Of a stretch of 64,000 bases of DNA, positions 2,112 through 61,425 are shown in pieces (the first letter of the stretch is position 1; each line of letters begins with the position of its first letter). The DNA is taken from NCBI GenBank assembly GCA_025782575.1, contig JALGYY010000017.1:795892-859891 (forward strand), written 5' to 3'. The notes under the pieces are model-generated. The model was not told the origin of the DNA. It worked only from the letters and a program-made list of their open reading frames with translations, and made no database searches. Position numbers and translations under genes: made by a program. The stretch is from a bacterium. Lineage in GTDB: Bacteria > Orphanbacterota > Orphanbacteria > Orphanbacterales > Orphanbacteraceae.

Positions 2112-3541
2112 CTTTCTACCGATTTAAAGAAATATTGCTTGACACGTTTCGTAGCCTGCCGGATTCGACTATCTTAGATCCCTCGCCAGATCCGCTTAAG
2201 AACCCCTCTCTTCACTATGGATTAACTGGATGCGATCTCATCGGTTCAGCTTTCAAATTCATCGCCAGTCTCTCTTGCTGGTCCTCTCTCGAAGCCGAAA
2301 AAGGGCATGCTAAAATATCTGTGGGGCTTGGAACGACAGGGGTGGATCAGGAGGGGAAGAAGACGATGACGACGAAGAAGATGGATTCGGTGCTGGCGAA
2401 GCTTTCCAACCATGAGATCATTCAAAAAGGGGATCGGGCGGTTCACAGCCGGCATGAGCTCTCCATCGAGATTCTCGACTGTCTGGTCGAGATCGAGAGC
2501 CGGTCGATTTTCCTGAAAGAAGGGTACTCTTCTCTGTTCGATTACTGCACGCGGAGATGGCACCATTCGCCCCCCAAAGCCGGACGGTTCATCGCTGCCG
2601 CCCGATGTATGAAGAACTTTCCTGATGTGCGAAATCTGCTAGTGCAGCGGAGGATCACACTTTGCGGCGTCTCCAGAATCGCCGGAATCCTGACCGATTC
2701 GAATTCCGACAGGATTCTCCGAGAGGTCTCGGGAAAGAGATTCGTGGAGATTGAAAAGATTGTAGCCTCGCTGAAAATCGCTCCCAGGACCCGGGAGTCG
2801 ATCCGGCCGATCGGACTGCAGGAGCCGGCGGGCGGGCGGGTTCGAAGTGCCGATTACGAGAATCTCTTTCAGCCGAATCCACTACCTGAGAACTATCAAT
2901 TTGATAGCGATTTCACGAGTGACCTTGGCGATCTTTCCGGGGGCAACTCTCAAATTGATAGTCCGAAAGAGAAACCGGAACACCGTTACGAAATCCGGTT
3001 CTCGGCGAGCGAAGAGTTCTGCCGGGATCTGGAACGTGCGAAGACGGTCTGCTCCCGGAGTTGGAATCTGGAGGCGATCCTGGGGAGAGCGATCAAGGAC
3101 CTGCTGGAGAAGCGCGATCCCGAGCGAAAAGAGGCGCGGCGGAAAAAAAGAGAAGCCAGGAAGCAGAGCAAGTCGCGGAGCCAGGCGAAGAGGCGAACGC
3201 GAACCAAGACGGCGGGTCAATTGGCAACCGAGGGTGGAGCAAAAGGGACGGGTGAAAAGGGTTCACCCGGCAAGGGCACGACGGCATCGCCCGTCCGTTC
3301 GCGGCACATCCCGGCCCATTTGCGGGACGCGGTGTTCACCCGCGACAAATGGCGCTGCACGTACACCAGTTCCCTCGGCATCCAATGCGACTCGACCGCT
3401 CATCTGCAGATTGATCACATCACGCCGTATTGCCGGGGAGGGGATCACTCGCTAGAGAATCTGCGCATCCTGTGCGGCAAGCACAACCGATTGGCGGCTA
3501 GGGAAATGTCACTTACAAACCGTTGATCGGCGGGGAAGTCC
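2112..3541 (+). repeat. Dispersed HNH-gene repeat, copy 1
   Basis: This block and the inverted block at 60018-61425 are homologous over their whole length: about 250 bases of 5' flank, the HNH gene, and roughly ten bases past its stop (ATCGGCGGGG in both). The outermost conserved 5' element is a near-palindrome around AATATT followed by CTTGACA (2120-2144). Similarity stops abruptly on both sides. No terminal inverted repeats, target-site duplication or transposase are visible, so the unit spreads by an unknown route or is an old duplication. Confidence 0.7.
2366..3526 (+). CDS. HNH endonuclease domain protein, copy 1
   Basis: A 386-residue protein with a helical N-terminal half (about 1-160), an acidic and polar variable linker (about 170-220), a strongly basic stretch rich in K/R/E (about 260-320) and a C-terminal HNH nuclease domain. 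The HNH core is intact: CTYTSSLGIQC zinc/structural cysteines, the LQIDH histidine, ENLRILC asparagine and the final KHN histidine. I chose ATG 2366, which follows AGGAGGGGAAG and matches the start of copy 2; the frame is open further upstream without support. HNH proteins of this layout are usually annotated only by motif. A homing-like or self-spreading role is inferred from the second copy; the substrate is unknown. Confidence 0.8.
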   Translation: MTTKKMDSVLAKLSNHEIIQKGDRAVHSRHELSIEILDCLVEIESRSIFLKEGYSSLFDYCTRRWHHSPPKAGRFIAAARCMKNFPDVRNLLVQRRITLCGVSRIAGILTDSNSDRILREVSGKRFVEIEKIVASLKIAPRTRESIRPIGLQEPAGGRVRSADYENLFQPNPLPENYQFDSDFTSDLGDLSGGNSQIDSPKEKPEHRYEIRFSASEEFCRDLERAKTVCSRSWNLEAILGRAIKDLLEKRDPERKEARRKKREARKQSKSRSQAKRRTRTKTAGQLATEGGAKGTGEKGSPGKGTTASPVRSRHIPAHLRDAVFTRDKWRCTYTSSLGIQCDSTAHLQIDHITPYCRGGDHSLENLRILCGKHNRLAAREMSLTNR

Positions 3542-9154: not shown

Positions 9155-9223
9155 GGTTAACGGGTTAAGCCTCAGTAACAAGGTTGGCTGGCGCGATTGA
9201 CAGCCGCACGCTTTTGTTAGACG
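9155..9223 (-). other. Probable attC site, left half good
   Basis: On the minus strand the space between two genes contains GTCTAACAAAAGCGTGCGG, with a perfect R'' box (GTCTAAC, 9217-9223), then a GGCTG/CAGCC hairpin, then GAGGCTTAACCCGTTAACC, where GGCTTAAC resembles L' and GTTAACC is R' with one mismatch. Length (69 bases), orientation and location just past a gene end fit a worn attC site. Confidence 0.5.
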
Positions 9224-10535: not shown

Positions 10536-10621
10536 ATGAATTTCCTTTCCTTGTTAAGTTCGTAAATTGAAACGACAATCGTTCAACAGGTTGTCTTCTT
10601 TTCATTTGTTCTGATCCTACT

Positions 10622-10650
10622 AACTACTATTCTATCAATTGGCCCGATGC
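10622..10650 (-). repeat. 29-base motif shared with 19523-19551 (copy A)
   Basis: This stretch and 19523-19551 agree at 25 of 29 positions, including TCTATCAATT in both. Both lie upstream of a minus-strand gene (CDGSH here, the PD-(D/E)XK-like protein there). Read on the minus strand it begins GCATCGGGC and continues AATTGATAG. It could be a cassette-start or promoter element left by recombination. Confidence 0.5.
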
Positions 10651-10651
10651 A

Positions 10652-10678
10652 GACTCACCGCGAACCGCGCAGTAAATC
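10652..10678 (-). repeat. Hairpin abutting the 29-base motif
   Basis: GATTTACTGC and GCGGTGAGTC (minus strand) pair over ten positions, with three G-T wobbles, around a seven-base loop. It directly precedes the GCATCGGGC end of the shared motif, the arrangement expected for the stem of a folded recombination site. No matching R'' box was found. Confidence 0.35.
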
Positions 10679-10990
10679 AGCACGGTCCACCACATCCGTG
10701 TCTCTCAGAATAGCATAGGGGCAACAACTTCCGTTTGAAACTCGTTTCGCTGTCCAGAGCAATAGGCCGAGCAACAGTCGGTGTAACGATAATGTACCGC
10801 CGTGTGGTCGGCCCGGCGTAGCCTGTCGGCAGGCCGACCCTCAGTTCATGTTGATGGTGTAGAGGCTGGTGCAATTGATTGTGGCGGTGTTGTCCGGTTT
10901 CATTTTGGCAGTAGGAGCTGCCACCGGTCCCGCTGATTATTCGGATCACTTCCTGATTGCTTCCACGCAATTATCTCATTCTCACAACAC

Positions 10991-11456: not shown

Positions 11457-13505
11457 ATGCTCAACCGCCACAGTTCGTACTCGTTCGTTCTACTGACTCT
11501 GCTCGTCGGCCCTCTTCCCGCTGCAGGCCAGGTTAGTGACTCCTGGTCGCCTAAAGTTGCCCTACGGGACGATGTCACGAGCGACTTCCTGGCTCCGATC
11601 CATGCATCGCTGATGCCGGACGGCAGCGTGATGCTGTTCGGGTTCACGCAAACCCTCGAAGAACCACCGAATGTCAGCTTCCAGACGGGTTCTTTCACCG
11701 CCCTTCTTGTCCCACCTGTTTTGGGGTCAAGCGTTCCCTCCGAAATGTACATCACGAACTACCCCGAAGATCTGGAGTACAACCTGAATGGAGGGGGCGG
11801 TACCTATCTGCATGACACCTATTTCTGCAGCGGCCATTCCCATATGCAGGATGGCACACTGTTCATCTCCGGCGGCTTGCGGAACGCACTCGACTGGCCG
11901 GACCCGGCACTCGGGACGACCATCTCAGGAGGCGGTGGGATGCCTTACGCCGCCACCTGGGACCACACGGCAAAGACCTGGTCGCGCATTCCGAACGATA
12001 TGGTCGGCCAGGGATCCTCGGGGCCGGTCGGCACTTTCTTTGAGGGGCCGGACCGTTACTACCCGACGGTGACCCGGCTCGCGGATGGCCGCATGCTGGT
12101 TGTCGGGGGTTCACAAATCCTTGAGCTCACAATAGTCGGCGTCACATACATCAGCAACGAGAAGAATCTAAGCGCCGAAATCTATGACCCTGAAACCGGA
12201 GACTGGACTGAACTCGCAACCCACGCCACTTCACCGCCTGCGATCTTTAATCGAGACTACACCCACTCATTCGTCCTCCCCGCATCACAGGGCAGCTTCG
12301 ACATCCTGATTCTCGGTGAGTTCGGCTTCCCGGTTTTGATGTCAACCACCGGACCTCAGCGCTGGTCGGCCCTCGGACCGAAACGCCCAGGCCCGGACAT
12401 GAACGAGGAGGGGATCCCGCCGGTCTCCGGCGCCTCGACCGTGATGCTGCCGATCCGTCTGCAAGCCAACGAGTGGGGTTACAGCAACGGCTCGATTCTG
12501 GTCGCCGGTGGCGAGGGGGATTACAAGGACGAGGTGGACATCTACGATCCGGCGACCGGCACCTGGGACGCGGGCCTTCTGCTCGCCGTCGACCGCCACC
12601 ACCTGTCGAGCCTCCTGCTGCCCAACGGAGAAGTGCTCGTGGTGAGCGGCCACAACGGCAGTACGGCGACCTCCCTGTTGCGGCAGGCGGAGTACATCGA
12701 CCCGGCAGCCGGCTTTGCTCGTCGAACGGGCAGCGACTCATCGTACGTGGTGCGCGGCTACCACACGATCACCCTGCTGCTTCCTGATGGGCGGGTTCTT
12801 GTAGGGGGCGGCCGTCTTGGCGGCCCCGGCACGCCGCCGCCCGAAAAGGCCAACTTCGAACTGCTCAGCCCGCCCTACATGTTCAATGCGCGCCCCACGA
12901 TTCTGTCAGCGCCGTCCGAAATCTATTACGGGCAGCCGTTCCAGGCGAGCTGGTCCGGCTCGGTGGATGATGCCGTGCTCGTCGCCCTCGGCTCAATGAC
13001 CCACTCGATTGACATGGCCCAGCGCCATGTCCAGGTCTCGCTCACTCCCGATCCGTCGAAACGGCCGCTGCCGGGGGGAAAGAACGCACTCGACGGCTCG
13101 ATCGAGGCGCCCGCCGATTCCTCGATCGCACCCCCGGGATACTACATGCTCTTCCTGCTGGCGCCCGACTCGATGCGGACGCCGTCGGTTGCGAAAATCG
13201 TCCACCTGCAGCACGCGCAAAACACCAGCGTCTCGACAATTCCGGATGGATCCAGACACTCCGGCCTCGCGCTCACACTCTCCCCCAATCCGACCCGCGG
13301 CCATGTGCTTGTTCAACTATCTGGAAGAATCGGCGGTGTGGCCGGCATCAGGGTGATCGACGTCCGGGGGCGGGTCGTCCGCCGGTGGGGCCCACGCGAA
13401 AACTTGGACCTCGATCTATCCGGGCTCCCCGCCGGAGTTTATTTCATTCGAGTGAGGGACACGGCGGGAAGAAGTGTAAGCGGCACGGTAACGCTGGTCC
13501 GGTAG
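11457..13505 (+). CDS. Secreted galactose-oxidase-like copper radical oxidase with C-terminal sorting domain
   Basis: A 682-residue extracellular enzyme of the galactose oxidase/glyoxal oxidase fold (CAZy AA5-like). Order: signal peptide (about 8-24, GPLPAAGQ), seven-bladed kelch propeller (about 40-475, repeated DG-R-x-L-V-V-GG blades), DUF1929 domain (about 478-586), and a 75-residue FlgD/Por-type sorting domain (SPNPTRGHVLV ... GLPAGVYFIRVRD). The whole copper-radical site is conserved: Cys124 (TYFCSG) for the thioether to Tyr202, axial Tyr435 and His436 (RGYHTI) and His516 (MTHSIDM). The stacking Trp290 of galactose oxidase is replaced (GGSQ at 217-220), so the substrate may not be galactose. 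It is one of only a few plus-strand genes in the region. Confidence 0.85.
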   Translation: MLNRHSSYSFVLLTLLVGPLPAAGQVSDSWSPKVALRDDVTSDFLAPIHASLMPDGSVMLFGFTQTLEEPPNVSFQTGSFTALLVPPVLGSSVPSEMYITNYPEDLEYNLNGGGGTYLHDTYFCSGHSHMQDGTLFISGGLRNALDWPDPALGTTISGGGGMPYAATWDHTAKTWSRIPNDMVGQGSSGPVGTFFEGPDRYYPTVTRLADGRMLVVGGSQILELTIVGVTYISNEKNLSAEIYDPETGDWTELATHATSPPAIFNRDYTHSFVLPASQGSFDILILGEFGFPVLMSTTGPQRWSALGPKRPGPDMNEEGIPPVSGASTVMLPIRLQANEWGYSNGSILVAGGEGDYKDEVDIYDPATGTWDAGLLLAVDRHHLSSLLLPNGEVLVVSGHNGSTATSLLRQAEYIDPAAGFARRTGSDSSYVVRGYHTITLLLPDGRVLVGGGRLGGPGTPPPEKANFELLSPPYMFNARPTILSAPSEIYYGQPFQASWSGSVDDAVLVALGSMTHSIDMAQRHVQVSLTPDPSKRPLPGGKNALDGSIEAPADSSIAPPGYYMLFLLAPDSMRTPSVAKIVHLQHAQNTSVSTIPDGSRHSGLALTLSPNPTRGHVLVQLSGRIGGVAGIRVIDVRGRVVRRWGPRENLDLDLSGLPAGVYFIRVRDTAGRSVSGTVTLVR

Positions 13506-13623
13506 CGGCCTGACCTGACGTGCAGTTGCCGTTCGTGACCGGCAGGGACTGGTCGTGGCCGGCGGCAACTCGCAGGATCAGGGACGGCACCGTGTCTGAC
13601 TGTACAATCACAGTGGCCGGCGA
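13506..13623. other. Junction between the oxidase gene and truncated hsdR
   Basis: A minus frame continues from hsdR through this space into the end of the oxidase gene, adding about 59 residues with no similarity to HsdR. I see only read-through here, and the breakpoint of the lost hsdR 3' half. No clear terminator separates the convergent genes. Confidence 0.5.
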
Positions 13624-14955
13624 GGCCTCGTCCGGCTGTTCCCAACGGAGCTGCCTGGTCTGGCGGTCTCGAATGCCCACCATCGTGCCGTCTTCAGCCT
13701 CGATAGTTGAGCCGCCCGCTGTGATCTGTGTGCGGATCTTGTAGATCTCAAAGTCCACGTTCACGCCATCGGCTACCGCCTCTTCGTGGCTGTACTCCAT
13801 GACCAGGTTCTGATTGAAGAAGCCGAAAGTGTGTTTGGCCGGGGTGGCGGTGAGGCCGATCAGATAGGCGTCGAAGTACTCCAGCACCTGCCGCCAGAGC
13901 GAGTAGATCGAGCGATGACACTCGTCGATGATGATGACATCGAAGTACTCGGGCGGGATGGCCTTGTTGTAGACCACCGGCAGCGGCTCTTTGGGGAGCG
14001 CCGCTTCCTCGGTCTCAAAGAGAGACAGCTCATCGGATTCCTCGTCGAACTCCGGCTCACCCTTGAGCATAGAGTAGAACCGCTGAATCGTAGAGATCAC
14101 CACCTTGCTCGATGAGCCAATGGTCGCCGATTGCAGTCGCTGCACATTGTAGAGTTCGGTGAACTTCCGGTTGTCGTCCGGGGTCCGATATCCCGCAAAC
14201 TCCTTTTCGGTTTGCTCGGCCAGGTTGCCGCGGTCCACCAGGAAAAGCACCCGCCGTGCGCCGCCGTACTTGATGAGCCGGTAGATCGCGGTCACGGCCA
14301 ATAGGGTCTTACCACTCCCGGTGGCCATCTGGATCAGCGCCCTCGGTTTGTCCTTTTTCAGCGACTGTTCCAGGTTGGTGATGACTTTGACCTTGTTCTG
14401 CCAGAGGTTCGGAATGTGATCGGGCGGCAGGGTCTGGATGCGTGAGCGGAGGGTTGATGGCTTGTTGTCCTCGGCAAAGGTGTAGAGCCCGTCGTCGGGT
14501 GGACTGAGGCTCTTGACCCATTCATCGAGGGTCTCCATCTCCAGCCACTCCACAAGCGTCTCCGGGCGATGGAACTGGAAGATGCGGCGGCTCCGGGGAT
14601 GGGGGTCGAAGTTGTTCGAGAACCTGGTCTCCACACCGGTGGAAAGGTAGCAGAAGGGCAGGGGCGCATAGGGAGCATCCAGGTTACCCGGTAGCCCCTC
14701 GGAATACTTCTGACCCTGGACTTCGACTCCGCCGAGCGGGAAACCAGCCTTCTTCGCTTCCAGCACACCGACGGCCTGACTGTCGACGAAGAGCAGGTAG
14801 TCAGCAAAGCCATGCCCCGACTTCATCTTGAACTCACGGATAGCGACCCCAAGACCGGCAGAGAGGTTGATCTCGGCTCTGTCCTGTATTACCCAGCCTG
14901 ACTCTTCAAGCTGTTGGTCGATGACTGCTCGTGCTTGATGTTCAGGTGTTGTCAT
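13624..14955 (-). pseudogene. hsdR: Type I restriction enzyme R subunit, 3'-truncated
   Basis: The first 444 residues are a good HsdR: a PD-(D/E)XK nuclease domain (DYLLF around 52, then V-L-E-A-K-K with Glu66 and Lys68), helicase motif I (ATGSGKT, about 211-217), motif II DECH (Asp344), motif III TATP (about 369-372). After LRWEQPDEA the similarity ends; the second helicase domain, motifs IV-VI and the C-terminal HsdM-docking region are missing, leaving well under half of a usual 900-1050 residue subunit. The enzyme cannot translocate or cut as a normal type I complex. No hsdM or hsdS is present in the window. It lies 90 bases downstream of the RloC-like gene on the same strand. Confidence 0.85.
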
Positions 14956-15045
14956 TTATGAGTCCGGTTCGTTGGTTCTGTTGGGTGTGTCTGACGCTTC
15001 TGGCTCTCATTCCAATCTGTCACGCTCTTTTCGCTCACGAGCGTG

Positions 15046-17350
15046 TCACTTTTTCACAAACGCCAAGACTCGGTCTACCCATCCCCGAAGTTCGGTCTCG
15101 TTCACCGTCTCGGTCTCCCACGCAAGATTGGTGTTGTGGTGAAACCTGTTAGCGTACTCGCAGATTGCGTCCAACTCTGTCACTGCGGCCGGAGACAGAA
15201 TGGGCTGACTCCCCGCGCCTTGATCCCGGATTTTTCGCCGGAGATCGCCGAGAACGTCACCCGGCAGAAAGTGCGCGGGGCAGCACCGTCGCAGGAAACC
15301 CTCCATCACATGCCGCAGGCCTTGGGCCACCAAGCGCGAGCGCGCGGGATTGCCCGGGCAATACTCCCGCAATCGTTGATGTTGGCGGTCGTACTCGGTC
15401 ACAGAATCGTCTCCGATTGACCACGTCGAGATCGTTGATCCAGGCGGAGCCTCGACGATGGCTAGCGGCGTGCAAGCCTGTCGGTCAGCGTACCGCCAAA
15501 TAGCGCACAGGAACGCCTTGGAGTGCGAAAGTACGATCACTTGCTGGACCCGCTGGACCATGCTGCGCACCTCCTGAACCGTCGTGAGTGACCGATGCTC
15601 ATCAAGACTCGTCAATGGATCGTCAATCACCACGATCTTGGATGCCAGCGCCGGATCCTGATCCAGCGACACGAAAAAGAAGGCAAGAGCCAACGCATTG
15701 CGGTCCCCGGCGCTTAGCGTGCTCCGGAAGGATGGCGTTCCCCGCACTGGGGGCGCACCACCGGTCGGGATGTTTGTGTTGTTGATGACTACGCTGTACG
15801 TACACGCCGATCCGCCGCGAGTGTTAGCCGGGGTCATGCTGCCAAGCTGGAAACCTGCGTTGAATCGCTGAAGGTACACATTGATCGCGGTCTCATATCT
15901 GGGAAATACGTCCGTCCTGTACTGGTCCAACGCAGTTCGCGCTTGGTCGCGGAGATCCTCAGTCTCCCTCTTCGCGGCCCTTTCCTCCAAATACGCTTGG
16001 CACAAGGCGTTCGTCGGGGGAGCGTGGCGTGCTCTGACAGCCATCAGTCGCGCCAGATCGGAAGCCAATATCGTTGGGTTGCCCGAAGCCGCCTGTTCCT
16101 TCGTGAGGCGAACGGCGGCATTGGCTCGCTGCAGTTGTTGACTCAACGCGGCGATAGTCGCCCGCTGCCCTTCGTAGGCCAGGATAGCTTCACGGGCCTC
16201 TGCAGAGAGAGTAGTACGATCCAGTGGTGCGGCCTGCTTCGCGGCCAGAGCTTCGGCAACTGCATCATTCGCCGCTTGCCAATCTCGAACTACAGCGGCA
16301 GTGTCCACGGCGATCTCGGGTATATCGCAGAAGCGAACCCAAAACTGCCTCCCCTCCACGGCAATTCGGACAGCCCGCTCGAACGACGCCGGAGTGTCGC
16401 CCCCATGGATCCGGGTGTTCGCCGCTATGGCTTCAATAACAGATCGCTTCAATTGATCATAGGCGTCACTGAAATACGCGCGATAGTGGGCGATCAGCTC
16501 TGATCCGGGGAGGTCTTGAGCACAGAATGGGCAGACGACCGCCCCCTCAGTAGAAATAGGTATTGGCACCCGCGCCATCCCATCCGCGATCCACGCCTCC
16601 CCGCCTTGCCCTATGCGCCCCAAGGTGTTCTTGGACCCGCACAGCCGCGTCCGCGTCAAGGGCTGGCAAGTCACGCCGGAGGACCGCTTCGATGGCCGGG
16701 AGATCGACCGCGGGCAAGGCAATGGGCGCGAATTCAGCGGTGTTTCGCACCGCATCTTGCTCTCTTGCCGCCGCAAGGTTGCGTTCCGCCGTTTGGACCG
16801 CGGAATCAATATCGGTGCGAGTGGGAAGGTTGCAGAACTCGTCCACTGAAAGAGCCCCGCACTCGGCGGCGGGAATGGCGGCGCCCTTGACGCGTAACTG
16901 GCGGTTGTGTTGCTCAATCGCCGCGATAGAAGTCTGGTGCCGCTGATTCAGCTCGATTCCCTGAGCGCCGAGAATCAACTCGTGTAGTCGCTGGCGATGC
17001 TCGGGGCTGATTGCTAAGCCGGAATAGACATTCTGGTCCACAAACTGGTCGTCGAACACTACGATGTCGCCGAGCGAGCGGTTCCACGCCCCGTTCTGAA
17101 ACACCGCCGCCGAAGGGTCGCCAGTGCAATCTAGGACGACGTGAGGCGGATGCACAGCTCCGATCCGGGCCCGTTCGGTAATCGGGGTAGGATCGTTGGT
17201 ACCTAGAGATCGAAGAATCGCAGCAAGGGTGGTTTTGCCTCGCCCGTTTTCTGCGTAAATGAGCGTCAGTCGTAATAGTGTGATGCTCGCAGCTTCACTC
17301 ACCGAATCGAACTGCCCGACGTTCCTAAGGAGTTGTAGACGATTGATCAA
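15046..17350 (-). pseudogene. RloC/PrrC-like AAA_13 ATPase, candidate anticodon nuclease, frameshifted
   Basis: Two overlapping frames make one protein of about 767 residues if a single base is removed from the C run at 16618-16621. The joined product has Walker A AENGRGKTT (about 33-41), a zinc-hook motif CPFC (273-276) between coiled-coil arms, the ABC signature LSAGDR (545-550), Walker B IVVIDDP (572-578) and an H-loop LSHS (His609). That is the Rad50-like layout of RloC. The C-terminal part has R679-x3-E683 and a downstream histidine pair (737-738), reminiscent of the Arg-x3-Glu...His triad of the PrrC anticodon nuclease, though spacing differs. PrrC and RloC genes sit in type I R-M loci, as here. 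Natural break or assembly error cannot be told apart. Confidence 0.75.
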
Positions 17351-17424: not shown

Positions 17425-17489
17425 GCCTAACGCCTTGCCGATAAGCGGCAGTCCCGAAGCGGCCGTCCATCTGCAACGCCTTGGACAGC
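17425..17489 (-). other. Integron attC site (attC-2)
   Basis: On the minus strand the 65 bases after the serine-protease stop have attC architecture: a divergent R'' box (GCTGTCC), AAGGCGTTGCAG (shared with many chromosomal attC sites), GGACGGCCGCTTCGGG, the L' arm GCCGCTTATCGGCAAGGC and a perfect R' box GTTAGGC (17425-17431). It starts six bases past the stop codon, as in typical cassettes. Orientation equals attC-1. Confidence 0.75.
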
Positions 17490-17494
17490 CGCAA

Positions 17495-18733
17495 TTATTC
17501 CCATGTGAGGGATAGCCGCTCTTGGATCGCATCCCAAGGGACCCCGAAAGAGAGACCTTCAAATCCCGGAGCGGCGATTTTCCAACTAACAATGGCCACA
17601 ACCTGCCCGGCCGAATTAATCAAGGGACCGCCGCTATTGCCCGGGTTCAGGCTTGCATCTGTTTGCAGGTAAGAAAACCCATCGAGAGTGCGATGACCAC
17701 TAACAATCCCGCGGCTCACGGAAAACGCAAGCTCCTCGCCACTCGGCGCACCAATCGCATAGAGTTCCTCACCAACAGCTGGAGGCTGCCCCGTGAGCAG
17801 TGGCATGCACGCGTGGCCCTTTCCTGGCAATTTGATAAGAGCCACGTCTTGCGCAAGATCTTCCTTTATGACCTCTGCAGTGAGTTCGAGACCGGAGTGC
17901 AGAACGACAACTACGTTCTCAAGACCACTAACTACATGTGCCGCGGTAATGGCTTCCCCAGAAGAGGCGATCACAACGCCACTTCCGATACTGGCTCCGG
18001 CCCTGATTAAGACTACACAGTCCATGAGTTCATCCAAGTCTCCGGGCATCGACCTGGGAGTCACTTCACATCGCTGGACGGAGTGAAGGGGTCCGGAGGC
18101 AATTGCTGCGCCCCACTCAGCACTGGGGCGTTTTCCAACGATTTCAACAAATGCTGGATTAGCCATTAGGTTGCTTAGGGCCGCCCTAAACGCGCCTTGG
18201 ACACATGCGTTGGTTGCGCCAGAATGCTTTGCGTACCCTACTGTAGTATCTGCGAAAACAACCTCTTGACGCAAGGCGTTGTAGAGTTGCCACTCTACCG
18301 TCATGTTGGCGTCTGAGTAATTCCCCGCGAGCGAGCCAAATGTATTCAGCTCCATTGTCGTAACGGTGCCACCAATTTGATATTCGGCCTTCGCCGACTT
18401 GTCGATCCCGAACAACAGATTATCTCCACCAAGAACCTCATAGCCGGAAGACTTCATGTGCTCCGAAGCGATGATTTTGAACTCATCGGATGCAACAGTA
18501 AGATTCGACTGCCAGACGTGTTTGAACTTGACGATCTGGAGCATGCCCTCGTGATGGGCGCCAAGTTCTGTACCGGAAGGCACGCGCACGACAAGCCGAG
18601 TGAAAGTAATGGGTGCTGACCCCGTGGGGCCTAACACTAGTGGCGTAAGAGTTGGAACTACGGTGCTCTTGGTAGTGGCGCAGCCCGCGAGGACCAGCGA
18701 CATCCCCACAATTGCAAGAGATTTCAATAACAT
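17495..18733 (-). CDS. Trypsin-like (DegP/HtrA-type) serine protease lipoprotein in a cassette
   Basis: A 412-residue lipoprotein (lipobox LAGC, Cys18) with two parts. Residues about 40-210 are a domain I do not recognise, with beta-rich strands such as YQIGGTVTTMEL. Residues about 235-412 form a trypsin-like domain with the catalytic triad intact: His266 (TAAHVV), Asp296 (DVALIKL) and Ser367 (NPGNSGGP). No PDZ domain follows, unlike DegP. The start has an excellent ribosome-binding site (GGGAGGT). It is framed by attC-1 upstream and attC-2 directly after its stop, the signature of one gene cassette. Confidence 0.8.
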   Translation of the reverse strand: MLLKSLAIVGMSLVLAGCATTKSTVVPTLTPLVLGPTGSAPITFTRLVVRVPSGTELGAHHEGMLQIVKFKHVWQSNLTVASDEFKIIASEHMKSSGYEVLGGDNLLFGIDKSAKAEYQIGGTVTTMELNTFGSLAGNYSDANMTVEWQLYNALRQEVVFADTTVGYAKHSGATNACVQGAFRAALSNLMANPAFVEIVGKRPSAEWGAAIASGPLHSVQRCEVTPRSMPGDLDELMDCVVLIRAGASIGSGVVIASSGEAITAAHVVSGLENVVVVLHSGLELTAEVIKEDLAQDVALIKLPGKGHACMPLLTGQPPAVGEELYAIGAPSGEELAFSVSRGIVSGHRTLDGFSYLQTDASLNPGNSGGPLINSAGQVVAIVSWKIAAPGFEGLSFGVPWDAIQERLSLTWE

Positions 18734-18810
18734 GTCGTTTACCTCCCGAGGATTAGAATCTGCGAGAGATCATGCTCCCGCTTGGGGATTACCGCAACAC
18801 AAAGTCTGCT

Positions 18811-18874
18811 GTCTAACGTCCCTGAGATGAGCTGCAATCGCGAAGCGGCTGTCTGCTTAAATCCATTGTTCGGC
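18811..18874 (-). other. Integron attC site (attC-1)
   Basis: The best attC in the window. On the minus strand: R'' GCCGAAC (18868-18874), AATGGATTTAAGCAGAC (L''), GCCGCTTCGCG loop, GCAGCTCATCTCAGG (L') and R' GTTAGAC (18811-18817). It lines up along its length with class 1 aadA-type attC sites, including the AACAAT start, the AAGC-x-GAC arm, the CCGCTTCGCG centre and the CGTTAGA end. It begins eight bases past the stop of the upstream gene. Confidence 0.85.
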
Positions 18875-18882
18875 ACGACCGC

Positions 18883-19500
18883 TTACTCATCCTTCTTCGC
18901 GATGACTCTCAGTTGCGTAAGCGTGCTATCCTTTACCGCCTCTACGAATAGTGGGCGAGTATCGCCATCCAGGGTTGTCAATACTCGATTTACGAAGTAA
19001 TCGCCGAGTTCGTAGCGGCGGGGTGAACCGGCTGAGTGGTATTCATTGCCACTGTAGACACCAGGGGTTGGCCGGCCGTCGTCGCCGGGGATCTCCATGA
19101 GCTTGGGTGCTTTGGTGAGTTTCTTCATGTCGCCGATTTGGCACTGGGCGCGACTCTTCTCTTTGGGGCTTAGCTTCTTCAATTCGCCGCGCTTGGCTTG
19201 GACTAGTATGGCCTTGTCTACTGTGGATTGGCCGTCTGTAATGGTAGCTGTGATGGCGAGATCTGCTCCTGACCAGCGCTCTGCGGCACCGGGCCCTCGA
19301 TCATCCATGACGGTAGACTGGAATTCGACGCGGCCATGAGAGCCGCTGTACGCAACGCCCTCCAGAGCGTGAGCGAGAGCCGCAGTGTAGGCAGCTTCCT
19401 GGCGGTATCGACGGTGGTCGACCGACTCAATGGCCTTCTCAACGTGTCGGCGCACGGCCTGCCTGACATCCCGATGAAAGCCGAACGCGTGTCGTGGCAT
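18883..19500 (-). CDS. PD-(D/E)XK-like nuclease-fold protein in a cassette
   Basis: A 205-residue cytoplasmic protein. The pattern E35 (RQEAAYTAALAHAL), D80 (WSGADLAITATI) and Q101-A-K103 (AILVQAKRG) matches the E ... D ... (Q/E)xK active site of the restriction-endonuclease-like superfamily. The C-terminal part (PGVYSGNEYHSAGSPRRYELGDYFVNRVL) may bind substrate. Members often act as restriction or defence nucleases, but no methyltransferase is adjacent. The start is behind GGAGGGGGG. Its stop is eight bases from attC-1, so it is the first clear cassette next to the chromosomal alr gene. The nuclease call rests on motif spacing and needs a profile comparison. Confidence 0.6.
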   Translation of the reverse strand: MPRHAFGFHRDVRQAVRRHVEKAIESVDHRRYRQEAAYTAALAHALEGVAYSGSHGRVEFQSTVMDDRGPGAAERWSGADLAITATITDGQSTVDKAILVQAKRGELKKLSPKEKSRAQCQIGDMKKLTKAPKLMEIPGDDGRPTPGVYSGNEYHSAGSPRRYELGDYFVNRVLTTLDGDTRPLFVEAVKDSTLTQLRVIAKKDE

Positions 19501-19522
19501 CTCGTCCCCCCTCCATGTGCCG

Positions 19523-19551
19523 AACTAATACTCTATCAATTAGCCCAATGC
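19523..19551 (-). repeat. 29-base motif shared with 10622-10650 (copy B)
   Basis: Second copy of the AATTGATAG-containing motif, 22 bases upstream of the start codon of the PD-(D/E)XK-like gene. It differs from copy A at four of 29 positions. Here no hairpin precedes it, and the next gene upstream is the host alr, so it may mark the array edge. Confidence 0.5.
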
Positions 19552-19643
19552 CGATTTTTTCCGTTCAGGCCAGAATACCATACATGGCAATGAGGCAGCA
19601 TGGAACGCGCTTAGTCGGCGAGGTTTACCAATGTGCAGAAGGG

Positions 19644-60032: not shown

Positions 60033-61425
60033 TTAACGGTTCGTCAGTGACATCTCTCGAGCCGCCAACCGGTTGTGCTTCCCACAGAGAATGCGCAGAT
60101 TGTCGACGGAGTGCTCCCCTCCCCTGCAATATGGCGTGATGTGATCGATCTGCAGATGTGCAGTCGCATCGCATCGGATGCCGAGGGAACTCGTATAGGT
60201 GCAGCGGCCTTCATCGCGGGTGAACACTGCATCCCGCAATTGGTCCGGGATGTGTCGGGAACGGCCCGGGGATGTCTGCGTGCCTCTGCCAGGGGTTTTC
60301 TTTTCATCTTTTGCTGTTGGCTCGCTCACTGTTGCCGGATTGACCGGTGATCGCCCCCGCGACTTCTCCTGCTTTCTGGCTTCTCTCTTCTTCCTCCGCG
60401 CCTCTTTCCGCTCAGGGTCGCGCTTCTCCAGCAAGTCCTTGATCGCTCTCCCCAGGATCGCTTCTAGGTTCCAGCTACGGGAGCAGACCGTCTTCGCCCG
60501 TCCCAGGTCTCGGCGGAATTCCTCGCTCGCGGAAAACCGGATTTCATAGCGATGTCCCGGCCTCTGTATCAGGTGTTCAACTGGAGAGTTGCCCCCGGAC
60601 TGAGCCGCCCGGTCATCCGTAATATCGCTCTCAATTTGATAGTGCTCAGGTGTTGGATTCGGCCGAAACAGATCCTCGTGATCGGCACTTCGATCCCGTC
60701 CGCCCGCCGGATCCTGCAGTCCAATCGGCCGGATTGACTCCCGGGTTTTGGGTGCGATTTTGAAGGAGGCGACGATCTTTTCGATCTCCACGTATTTTTT
60801 CCCCGAGACTTCTCGGACAATCCTGTCGGCATTCTCATCCGTCAGGATTCCGGCGATTCTGGAAACGCCGCAAAGTGTGATCCTCCTCTGGGAGAGCAAA
60901 TTCCGTACGGCAGAGAAATTCTTAATACATCTGGCAGCCGCGATGAACCGTCCCGCTTTGGGCGGGGAGTAGTGCCATCTCCGCGTACAGTAGTCGAATA
61001 GAGATGAGTATCCTTCTTTCAGGAAAATCGACCGACCCTCAATCTCCACCAGACAGTCGAGAATCTCGATGGCGAGTTCATGCCGGCAACGAACTGCCCG
61101 GTCCCCTCTTCGAATGATCTCATGGTTGGAAAGCTTTGCCAGAACCGTTTCCATCTCTTTCGTTGTCATCATCCTCTTCCCCCTTTCATCCACCCTGATC
61201 GATCCAAGCCCCATAACCATTCTAACACCCACTTTTTCGGCTTCGAGGGAGGCACTTCACGAAGATCCGGCAATGAATTCGAAAAATCGATAAGGAGATC
61301 CGATCAAACCGATCTTGGACAAAGAGAGTCAGTCCTGGGGCCAGCGTGCAATGGAGCGCGGCTTACCGAAATTTCTCACCCAAAAACCTGTCAAGCAATA
61401 TTTCTTGAAATCGATAGAAAATCAA
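60018..61425 (-). repeat. Dispersed HNH-gene repeat, copy 2 (inverted relative to copy 1)
   Basis: Homologous to 2112-3541, on the opposite strand. The 5' flank includes the near-palindrome TCAAG-A-AATATT-G-CTTGA at 61388-61409 and the CGAAGCCGAAAAAG block. The near-palindrome is complete here (16 of 18 positions self-complementary) but has one arm altered in copy 1. Confidence 0.7.
60033..61169 (-). CDS. HNH endonuclease domain protein, copy 2
   Basis: A 378-residue paralogue of the protein at 2366. N-terminal half and HNH core are nearly identical (HHSPPKAGRF vs HYSPPKAGRF; LRDAVFTRDEGRCTYTSSLG; LQIDHITP; NLRILCGKHN), while the linker (about 170-215) and the basic region (about 260-315, shorter here) differ most. 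All HNH residues are intact, so both copies appear under selection for function. ATG 61169 follows an AGGGGGAAG site; a second ATG lies immediately before it. The two copies are in opposite orientation at the two ends of the window. Confidence 0.8.
   Translation of the reverse strand: MTTKEMETVLAKLSNHEIIRRGDRAVRCRHELAIEILDCLVEIEGRSIFLKEGYSSLFDYCTRRWHYSPPKAGRFIAAARCIKNFSAVRNLLSQRRITLCGVSRIAGILTDENADRIVREVSGKKYVEIEKIVASFKIAPKTRESIRPIGLQDPAGGRDRSADHEDLFRPNPTPEHYQIESDITDDRAAQSGGNSPVEHLIQRPGHRYEIRFSASEEFRRDLGRAKTVCSRSWNLEAILGRAIKDLLEKRDPERKEARRKKREARKQEKSRGRSPVNPATVSEPTAKDEKKTPGRGTQTSPGRSRHIPDQLRDAVFTRDEGRCTYTSSLGIRCDATAHLQIDHITPYCRGGEHSVDNLRILCGKHNRLAAREMSLTNR

Follow-up and report, generated by a model that had tools for sequence, protein, structure and literature searches.

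A gene cassette array headed by a copied attI leader, away from the integron integrase, in a member of the Orphanbacterota

Integrons typically carry a single attI near the integrase gene, and IntegronFinder 2 detects attI only for class 1 (PMC9024848). A single attI per integron is likewise stated in an account of Treponema, where intI is transcribed toward attI (PMC3607928). The usual view therefore places one attI beside the integrase (PMC9024848, PMC3607928) and treats cassette clusters without a nearby intI (CALINs) as degraded integrons or off-target events. The listed origins of CALINs are off-target insertion, loss of intI and rearrangement (PMC8618304). In Xanthomonas, CALINs are described at recurrent loci away from intI (PMC12444791). 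In the open-access literature, no report was found of additional or orphan attI sites, or of attI copies heading such arrays.

The stretch analyzed here (the window) comprises 64,000 nucleotides of a 997-kb contig, C2, in a genome of 4.88 Mb (G000). It contains a short cassette array, array A, and a second candidate locus, array B, each preceded by a copy of the leader that stands beside the integrase gene of the same genome on another contig. Array A is probably a cassette array at a dispersed attI that was loaded in trans, and relatives have the same layout, an indication that a single integrase can load cassettes at a number of chromosomal places.

The main integron and its integrase

The genome encodes one integron integrase, a TIGR02249 match above the cut-off on contig C28, with 345 and 100 bits over two overlapping frames. 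The initial annotation, made from the window's letters alone, saw no integrase in view and proposed that an integrase located elsewhere may feed a chromosomal array here. The first statement nearly holds for the window, which has only a 40-bp intI scrap (10902-10863), but not for the genome; the second is supported by the C28 integrase and the long attC array found with it. The genome-wide IntI search also revealed a frameshift in intI immediately ahead of the TLRHSFATH catalytic motif (L012:1380-1420 in the assembly), reflecting either an assembly error or true inactivation. Because of this frameshift, present-day feeding by the integrase is unproven.

C28 has the composition of a complete integron, with intI, albeit frameshifted, next to attI and attC. 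The gene is transcribed toward attI and the cassettes, and four attC sites follow it before the contig ends. Contig C24 starts inside an array, holds at least 13 more attC sites (L138, G000 C24:1-10781) and is probably the continuation of the C28 array, giving a main array of about 17 sites in total. Gene names assigned by eye suggest that the L138 cassettes carry a katG-like catalase-peroxidase, a methyltransferase, GNAT enzymes and a MazEF-like pair; several of their R' boxes read GTTATGC, GATGGCA or GCTATGG.

Cassettes, attC sites and leader copies in the window

Two covariance models were used to score attC sites. R1 draws on 32 attC sites from other genomes and phyla, taken from arrays at 80 integrase loci in named genomes of many phyla; R2 draws on 15 attC sites inside the genome's own main array. 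In 148 kb of the genome, R1 recovers the four C28 sites, none of which was used in training, at 24-41 bits. Against the same 148 kb, R1 assigns attC site 1 (18811-18874, minus strand) 22.5 bits with E=0.0014, placing its boundaries exactly where the initial annotation had drawn them; the next-best match in the window reaches 9.6 bits. Site 1 also ranks first in the window with R2 (20.2 bits), and in the R1 scan of all 4.88 Mb it is the best match outside the main array on C28 and C24 (E=0.046). The stop codon of the ORF at 18883-19500 lies 8 bases ahead of it.

Site 2 (17425-17490, minus strand) is not significant alone, with 8.0 bits and E=1.9 at 17425-17486 for R1 with filters off, and rank 7 in the window for R2 (10.3 bits, E=3.5). 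It nonetheless lies directly past a stop codon, ends in GTTAGGC and repeats site 1 with 73% identity over 41 nt; no longer direct repeat occurs in the surrounding 6 kb, and the spacing is 1386. By eye, it resembles a poorly conserved main-array site (L138:6754). On the R1 and R2 scores, site 1 is sound and site 2 is a degenerate candidate, so that the earlier claim of two intact attC sites is borne out for the first by the covariance check and is too strong for the second. The further likeness drawn between site 1 and aadA-type attC survives as a shared plan only, since blastn against 72,556 plasmids gave no attC match.

Other searches recovered little. An Rfam search of the window returned no matches, a strict R''/R' consensus scan recovered neither site, and minimum-free-energy folding of both as free DNA is uninformative, giving no attC hairpin. 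GCCTAAC was not found downstream of array A, and no third attC follows site 2.

Cassette 1 (18817-19524, minus strand, 708 bp) starts with TTCGGC at the attI crossover, and its last base is the G of its attC (18811-18874; R'' GCCGAAC, R' GTTAGAC), which lies 3' of the gene. That gene (18883-19500, minus strand) encodes a 205-residue protein of unknown family, with no sequence match in Pfam, NCBIfam, PADLOC or PDB and no homologue among seven genomes of the phylum, plasmids and viral contigs; its single-sequence structure model has a pLDDT of 42, unreliable and too poor for a structure search. Cassette 2 (17431-18816, minus strand, 1386 bp) starts with TTAGAC and lies between attC site 1 and the degenerate, non-significant candidate (17425-17490, minus strand; R'' GTCCAAG, R' GTTAGGC). 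Its gene (17495-18733, minus strand) encodes 412 residues with a lipoprotein-like N-terminus and a trypsin-like (HtrA-type) protease domain, matched by Pfam PF13365 (E=3e-31) and, below the cut-off, by a domain of NCBIfam TIGR02037.

Behind array A, 13444-17350 (minus strand) holds an AAA_13 gene that spans two overlapping frames, together with a truncated HsdR-like gene. Both look broken, neither has attC sites, and the AAA_13 gene resembles the candidate defence family PDC-S06. Near opposite ends of the window, two HNH-type proteins (2135-3526, plus strand, and 60033-61232, minus strand) are 76% identical over 405 residues.

Leader A (19525-19593, minus strand) stands at the head of array A; its segments 19593-19560 and 19555-19525 align with the leader that separates intI from the first cassette on C28 (blastn E=2.5e-6). 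The C28 leader terminates in GATAGAATAGTAG^TT, and the corresponding G^TT crossover of leader A falls at 19525/19524, with its G at 19525, just upstream of cassette 1. Leader B (10620-10802, minus strand) is 75.5% identical to the C28 leader over 184 bp (E=4e-35) and has its crossover at 10624/10623. The core CATTGGGCTAATTGATAGA occurs at three places in the genome, namely C28 and the two in the window, as an exact 19-mer except for one place with two mismatches; a reversed-control 19-mer has no occurrence in the 4.88 Mb. The cores of leaders A and B score 31/38 and 32/38, against a background maximum of 23 over the remaining window plus 96 kb of further DNA from the same genome. All copies lose agreement directly after the G^TT crossover. 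Two more matches to AATAGTAGTT (G002 C8 and G000 C2:28207) show no leader homology.

Leader A is homologous to the leader beside intI and ends at the G^TT where cassettes start, as an attI does; this homology sets it apart from an attG, which is neither attI nor attC. The leader of about 190 bp comprises attI and probably also the cassette promoter. Leader A is not a faithful copy: it lacks an inner 40-nt stretch that both other copies have, its core reads AGTATTAG in place of AATAGTAG, and a sigma-70 scan found no consensus promoter in it.

Array A is not a complete integron, as no intI adjoins its attI and attC and none lies in the window. Like a CALIN, it has no nearby intI, only the 40-bp scrap, with intI itself on another contig; IntegronFinder 2 by default calls a CALIN from at least two attC sites, and array A has one significant and one degenerate site. 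To label the locus a plain CALIN misses the attI copy, leader B with its intI scrap, and the recurrence of the layout in relatives.

The scrap, a region encoding ETGQHRRHHLHQ (10863-10902, minus strand), is 87.5% identical over 40 bp to C28 intI (blastn E=9e-7). It lies 60 bp upstream of leader B in the right order and on the right strand, about 6.5 kb from site 2, and is the sole intI trace in the window. A tblastn search of the window with IntI gave no significant remnant, the best match (E=0.099) falling at the place of this scrap, and no intI trace was found in the 159 bp between leader A and alr (19752).

Behind leader B runs a series of short same-strand genes (10535-3562, minus strand): CDGSH/Fer4_19, an unknown, DinB, an AbiEi antitoxin, glyoxalase, an aspartyl-protease-like gene, SnoaL, YCII and an esterase. 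The run looks like a cassette array with decayed attC sites, of which only 9155-9222 (minus strand) scores, as a possible decayed attC with 15.8 bits, E=0.13 and rank 2 in the window for R2; it had been spotted by eye before R2 was built. The scrap beside leader B suggests that a complete integron once stood there and decayed.

The junction between leader and cassette provides a separate line of evidence. The circular cassette intermediate demands that R'' mirror the start of its own cassette, and in the main array (C28 and C24) it does so at 46/56 variable positions, where 27.9 are expected by permutation and none of 100,000 permutations reaches 46. The array A junction reads GTTCGGC and matches the reverse-complemented R'' of cassette 1 at 7/7 positions; it fits none of 18 other R'' boxes, GCCGAAC being an unusual R''. 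For cassette 2, R'' agrees with its own start at 5/7 positions. The match at the junction links leader A, cassette 1 and attC site 1 as the outcome of recombination between attI and attC, which predicts such a match.

Extra attI leaders in related genomes

An integrase is present in four of the seven genomes of the order (the same seven that make up the phylum sample), one in each. Genome G006 has its main attI on C261 and extra leaders on C334 and C78, 79-81% identical over about 185 bp; G005 has its main attI on C80 and an extra leader on C18; and G004 C7 has an attI-like end. In the main integrons of G005 and G006, as on C28, transcription of intI runs toward attI and the cassettes. Each of the relatives' extra sites heads a cassette with a significant attC, and the junction agrees with R'' in 7/7 positions at G006 C78, G006 C334, G005 C18 and G004 C7. 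Over these four sites and the first cassette of array A, the junction rule holds with a permutation p of 0.005; a weaker attI-like candidate, G006 C312, does not obey it. The leader homology in the relatives starts about 50 bp past the intI stop codon, and no intI sequence was found at the extra leaders of G006 C78 and G005 C18.

The extra sites of G005 C18 and G006 C334 share a 2.7-kb flank at 89% identity, indicating one inherited, orthologous locus, and their cassettes differ. Cassette X, a 335-bp cassette without an ORF, stands in tandem at the extra attI of G005 C18 (L146:3741-4141) and also at the main attI on C80. Its copies are 97-98.5% identical and the C80 and C18 leaders only about 80%, which implies that cassette X moved after the leader was copied. 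Three contigs end inside this cassette.

On G006 C78, a 5.4-kb attI-headed island (L189 350-5921) is missing at the orthologous place in G005 (L188, C111) and sits between near-identical direct repeats of an approximately 85-bp segment that is single in G005. The product of the first cassette of this island is a TIR protein of the CAP12/Pycsar type. Intergenic repeats about 100 bp long, seen at L189:5611-5830, occur on many G005 and G006 contigs. For array A, no empty site is readable, since the relatives keep alr and none of its window neighbours.

Origin of the arrays and relation to known systems

We infer loading in trans at array A and expression from the leader, and likewise the manner in which the leader was copied. 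The proposed course would begin with a leader of about 190 bp that now exists three times, beside C28 intI and at two places in the window that have no functional integrase gene. Cassette 1 would have entered at the attI copy through ordinary recombination between attI and attC, with cassette 2 behind it. The recombination would most likely have been supplied by the single IntI in trans, now or before its frameshift, and the leader would drive cassette expression. The broader proposition, that in this bacterial family one integrase serves several chromosomal attI sites, each with its own leader and a short, changing set of cassettes, is put forward tentatively, at somewhat less than even odds. 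Several observations count against dispersed attI with trans loading: intI is frameshifted, array A is short, its second site is degenerate, the core of leader A is changed and its 40 nt are missing, an intI scrap stands at leader B, leader A shows no sigma-70 promoter, and G006 C312 breaks the junction rule.

Some of these features would fit a history in which arrays A and B were complete integrons with their own intI, received their cassettes in cis and later lost intI by deletion. CALINs have been proposed to arise through loss of intI (PMC8618304), the scrap upstream of leader B has the order and strand that such a history predicts, and a short array with a degenerate second attC is what decay would leave. 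This explanation is nevertheless the less likely one: the interval between leader A and alr holds no intI trace, the homology at G006 C78 and G005 C18 begins past the intI stop codon and includes no intI sequence, and cassette X is far more alike between its sites than the leaders are. Trans loading at dispersed attI sites and decay of complete integrons may both have happened.

It is much less probable that array A is a plain CALIN, formed by off-target attG insertion or rearrangement, with its attI likeness due to chance or to a promoter alone. Insertion at attG is established (Loot 2024, as cited in PMC12444791), and the same source places Xanthomonas CALINs away from intI at recurrent loci, but the attI likeness here covers the leader rather than a core triplet alone, and every copy stops agreeing at the crossover. 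That both sites are chance attC-like sequences lying among ordinary genes is scarcely credible: site 2 does score no better than random spots and may still be one, but for site 1 this is refuted by scores that make it the best window match of two models trained on different sequences, and the leader and junction independently agree with it.

If dispersed attI sites are loaded in trans, attI copies away from intI, which occur at an orthologous locus in two species with different cassettes, make such arrays working outposts, and cassettes can take the leading position at several chromosomal places. Copied attI sites may also account for part of the CALINs elsewhere, and the origin of a CALIN becomes testable by seeking the genome's own attI at the head of the array.

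Among described systems, CALINs (Cury et al., IntegronFinder) resemble array A in having attC-bounded cassettes, no nearby intI and an integrase elsewhere in the genome, but they are defined by attC alone, whereas at the head of array A stands a recognisable copy of the attI leader found beside intI in the same genome. The Xanthomonas CALINs are similar in that cassette clusters occupy conserved chromosomal places with intI elsewhere; the accessible part of that report notes no attI at those loci, unlike array A (PMC12444791). Insertion at attG (Loot et al. 2024) also puts cassettes away from the intI-adjacent attI, but attG sites are not attI copies. Cassettes of the delta-attI type (PMC12901181) share with array A an attI in an unusual place; there, a cassette within an array carries attI as its own site of recombination, whereas in array A attI stands at the head. 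The sedentary chromosomal integron of the Treponema denticola type matches C28 and the main integrons of G005 and G006 in that intI reads toward attI (PMC3607928), yet it has one attI per integron, whereas the genomes described here hold two or three attI leaders.
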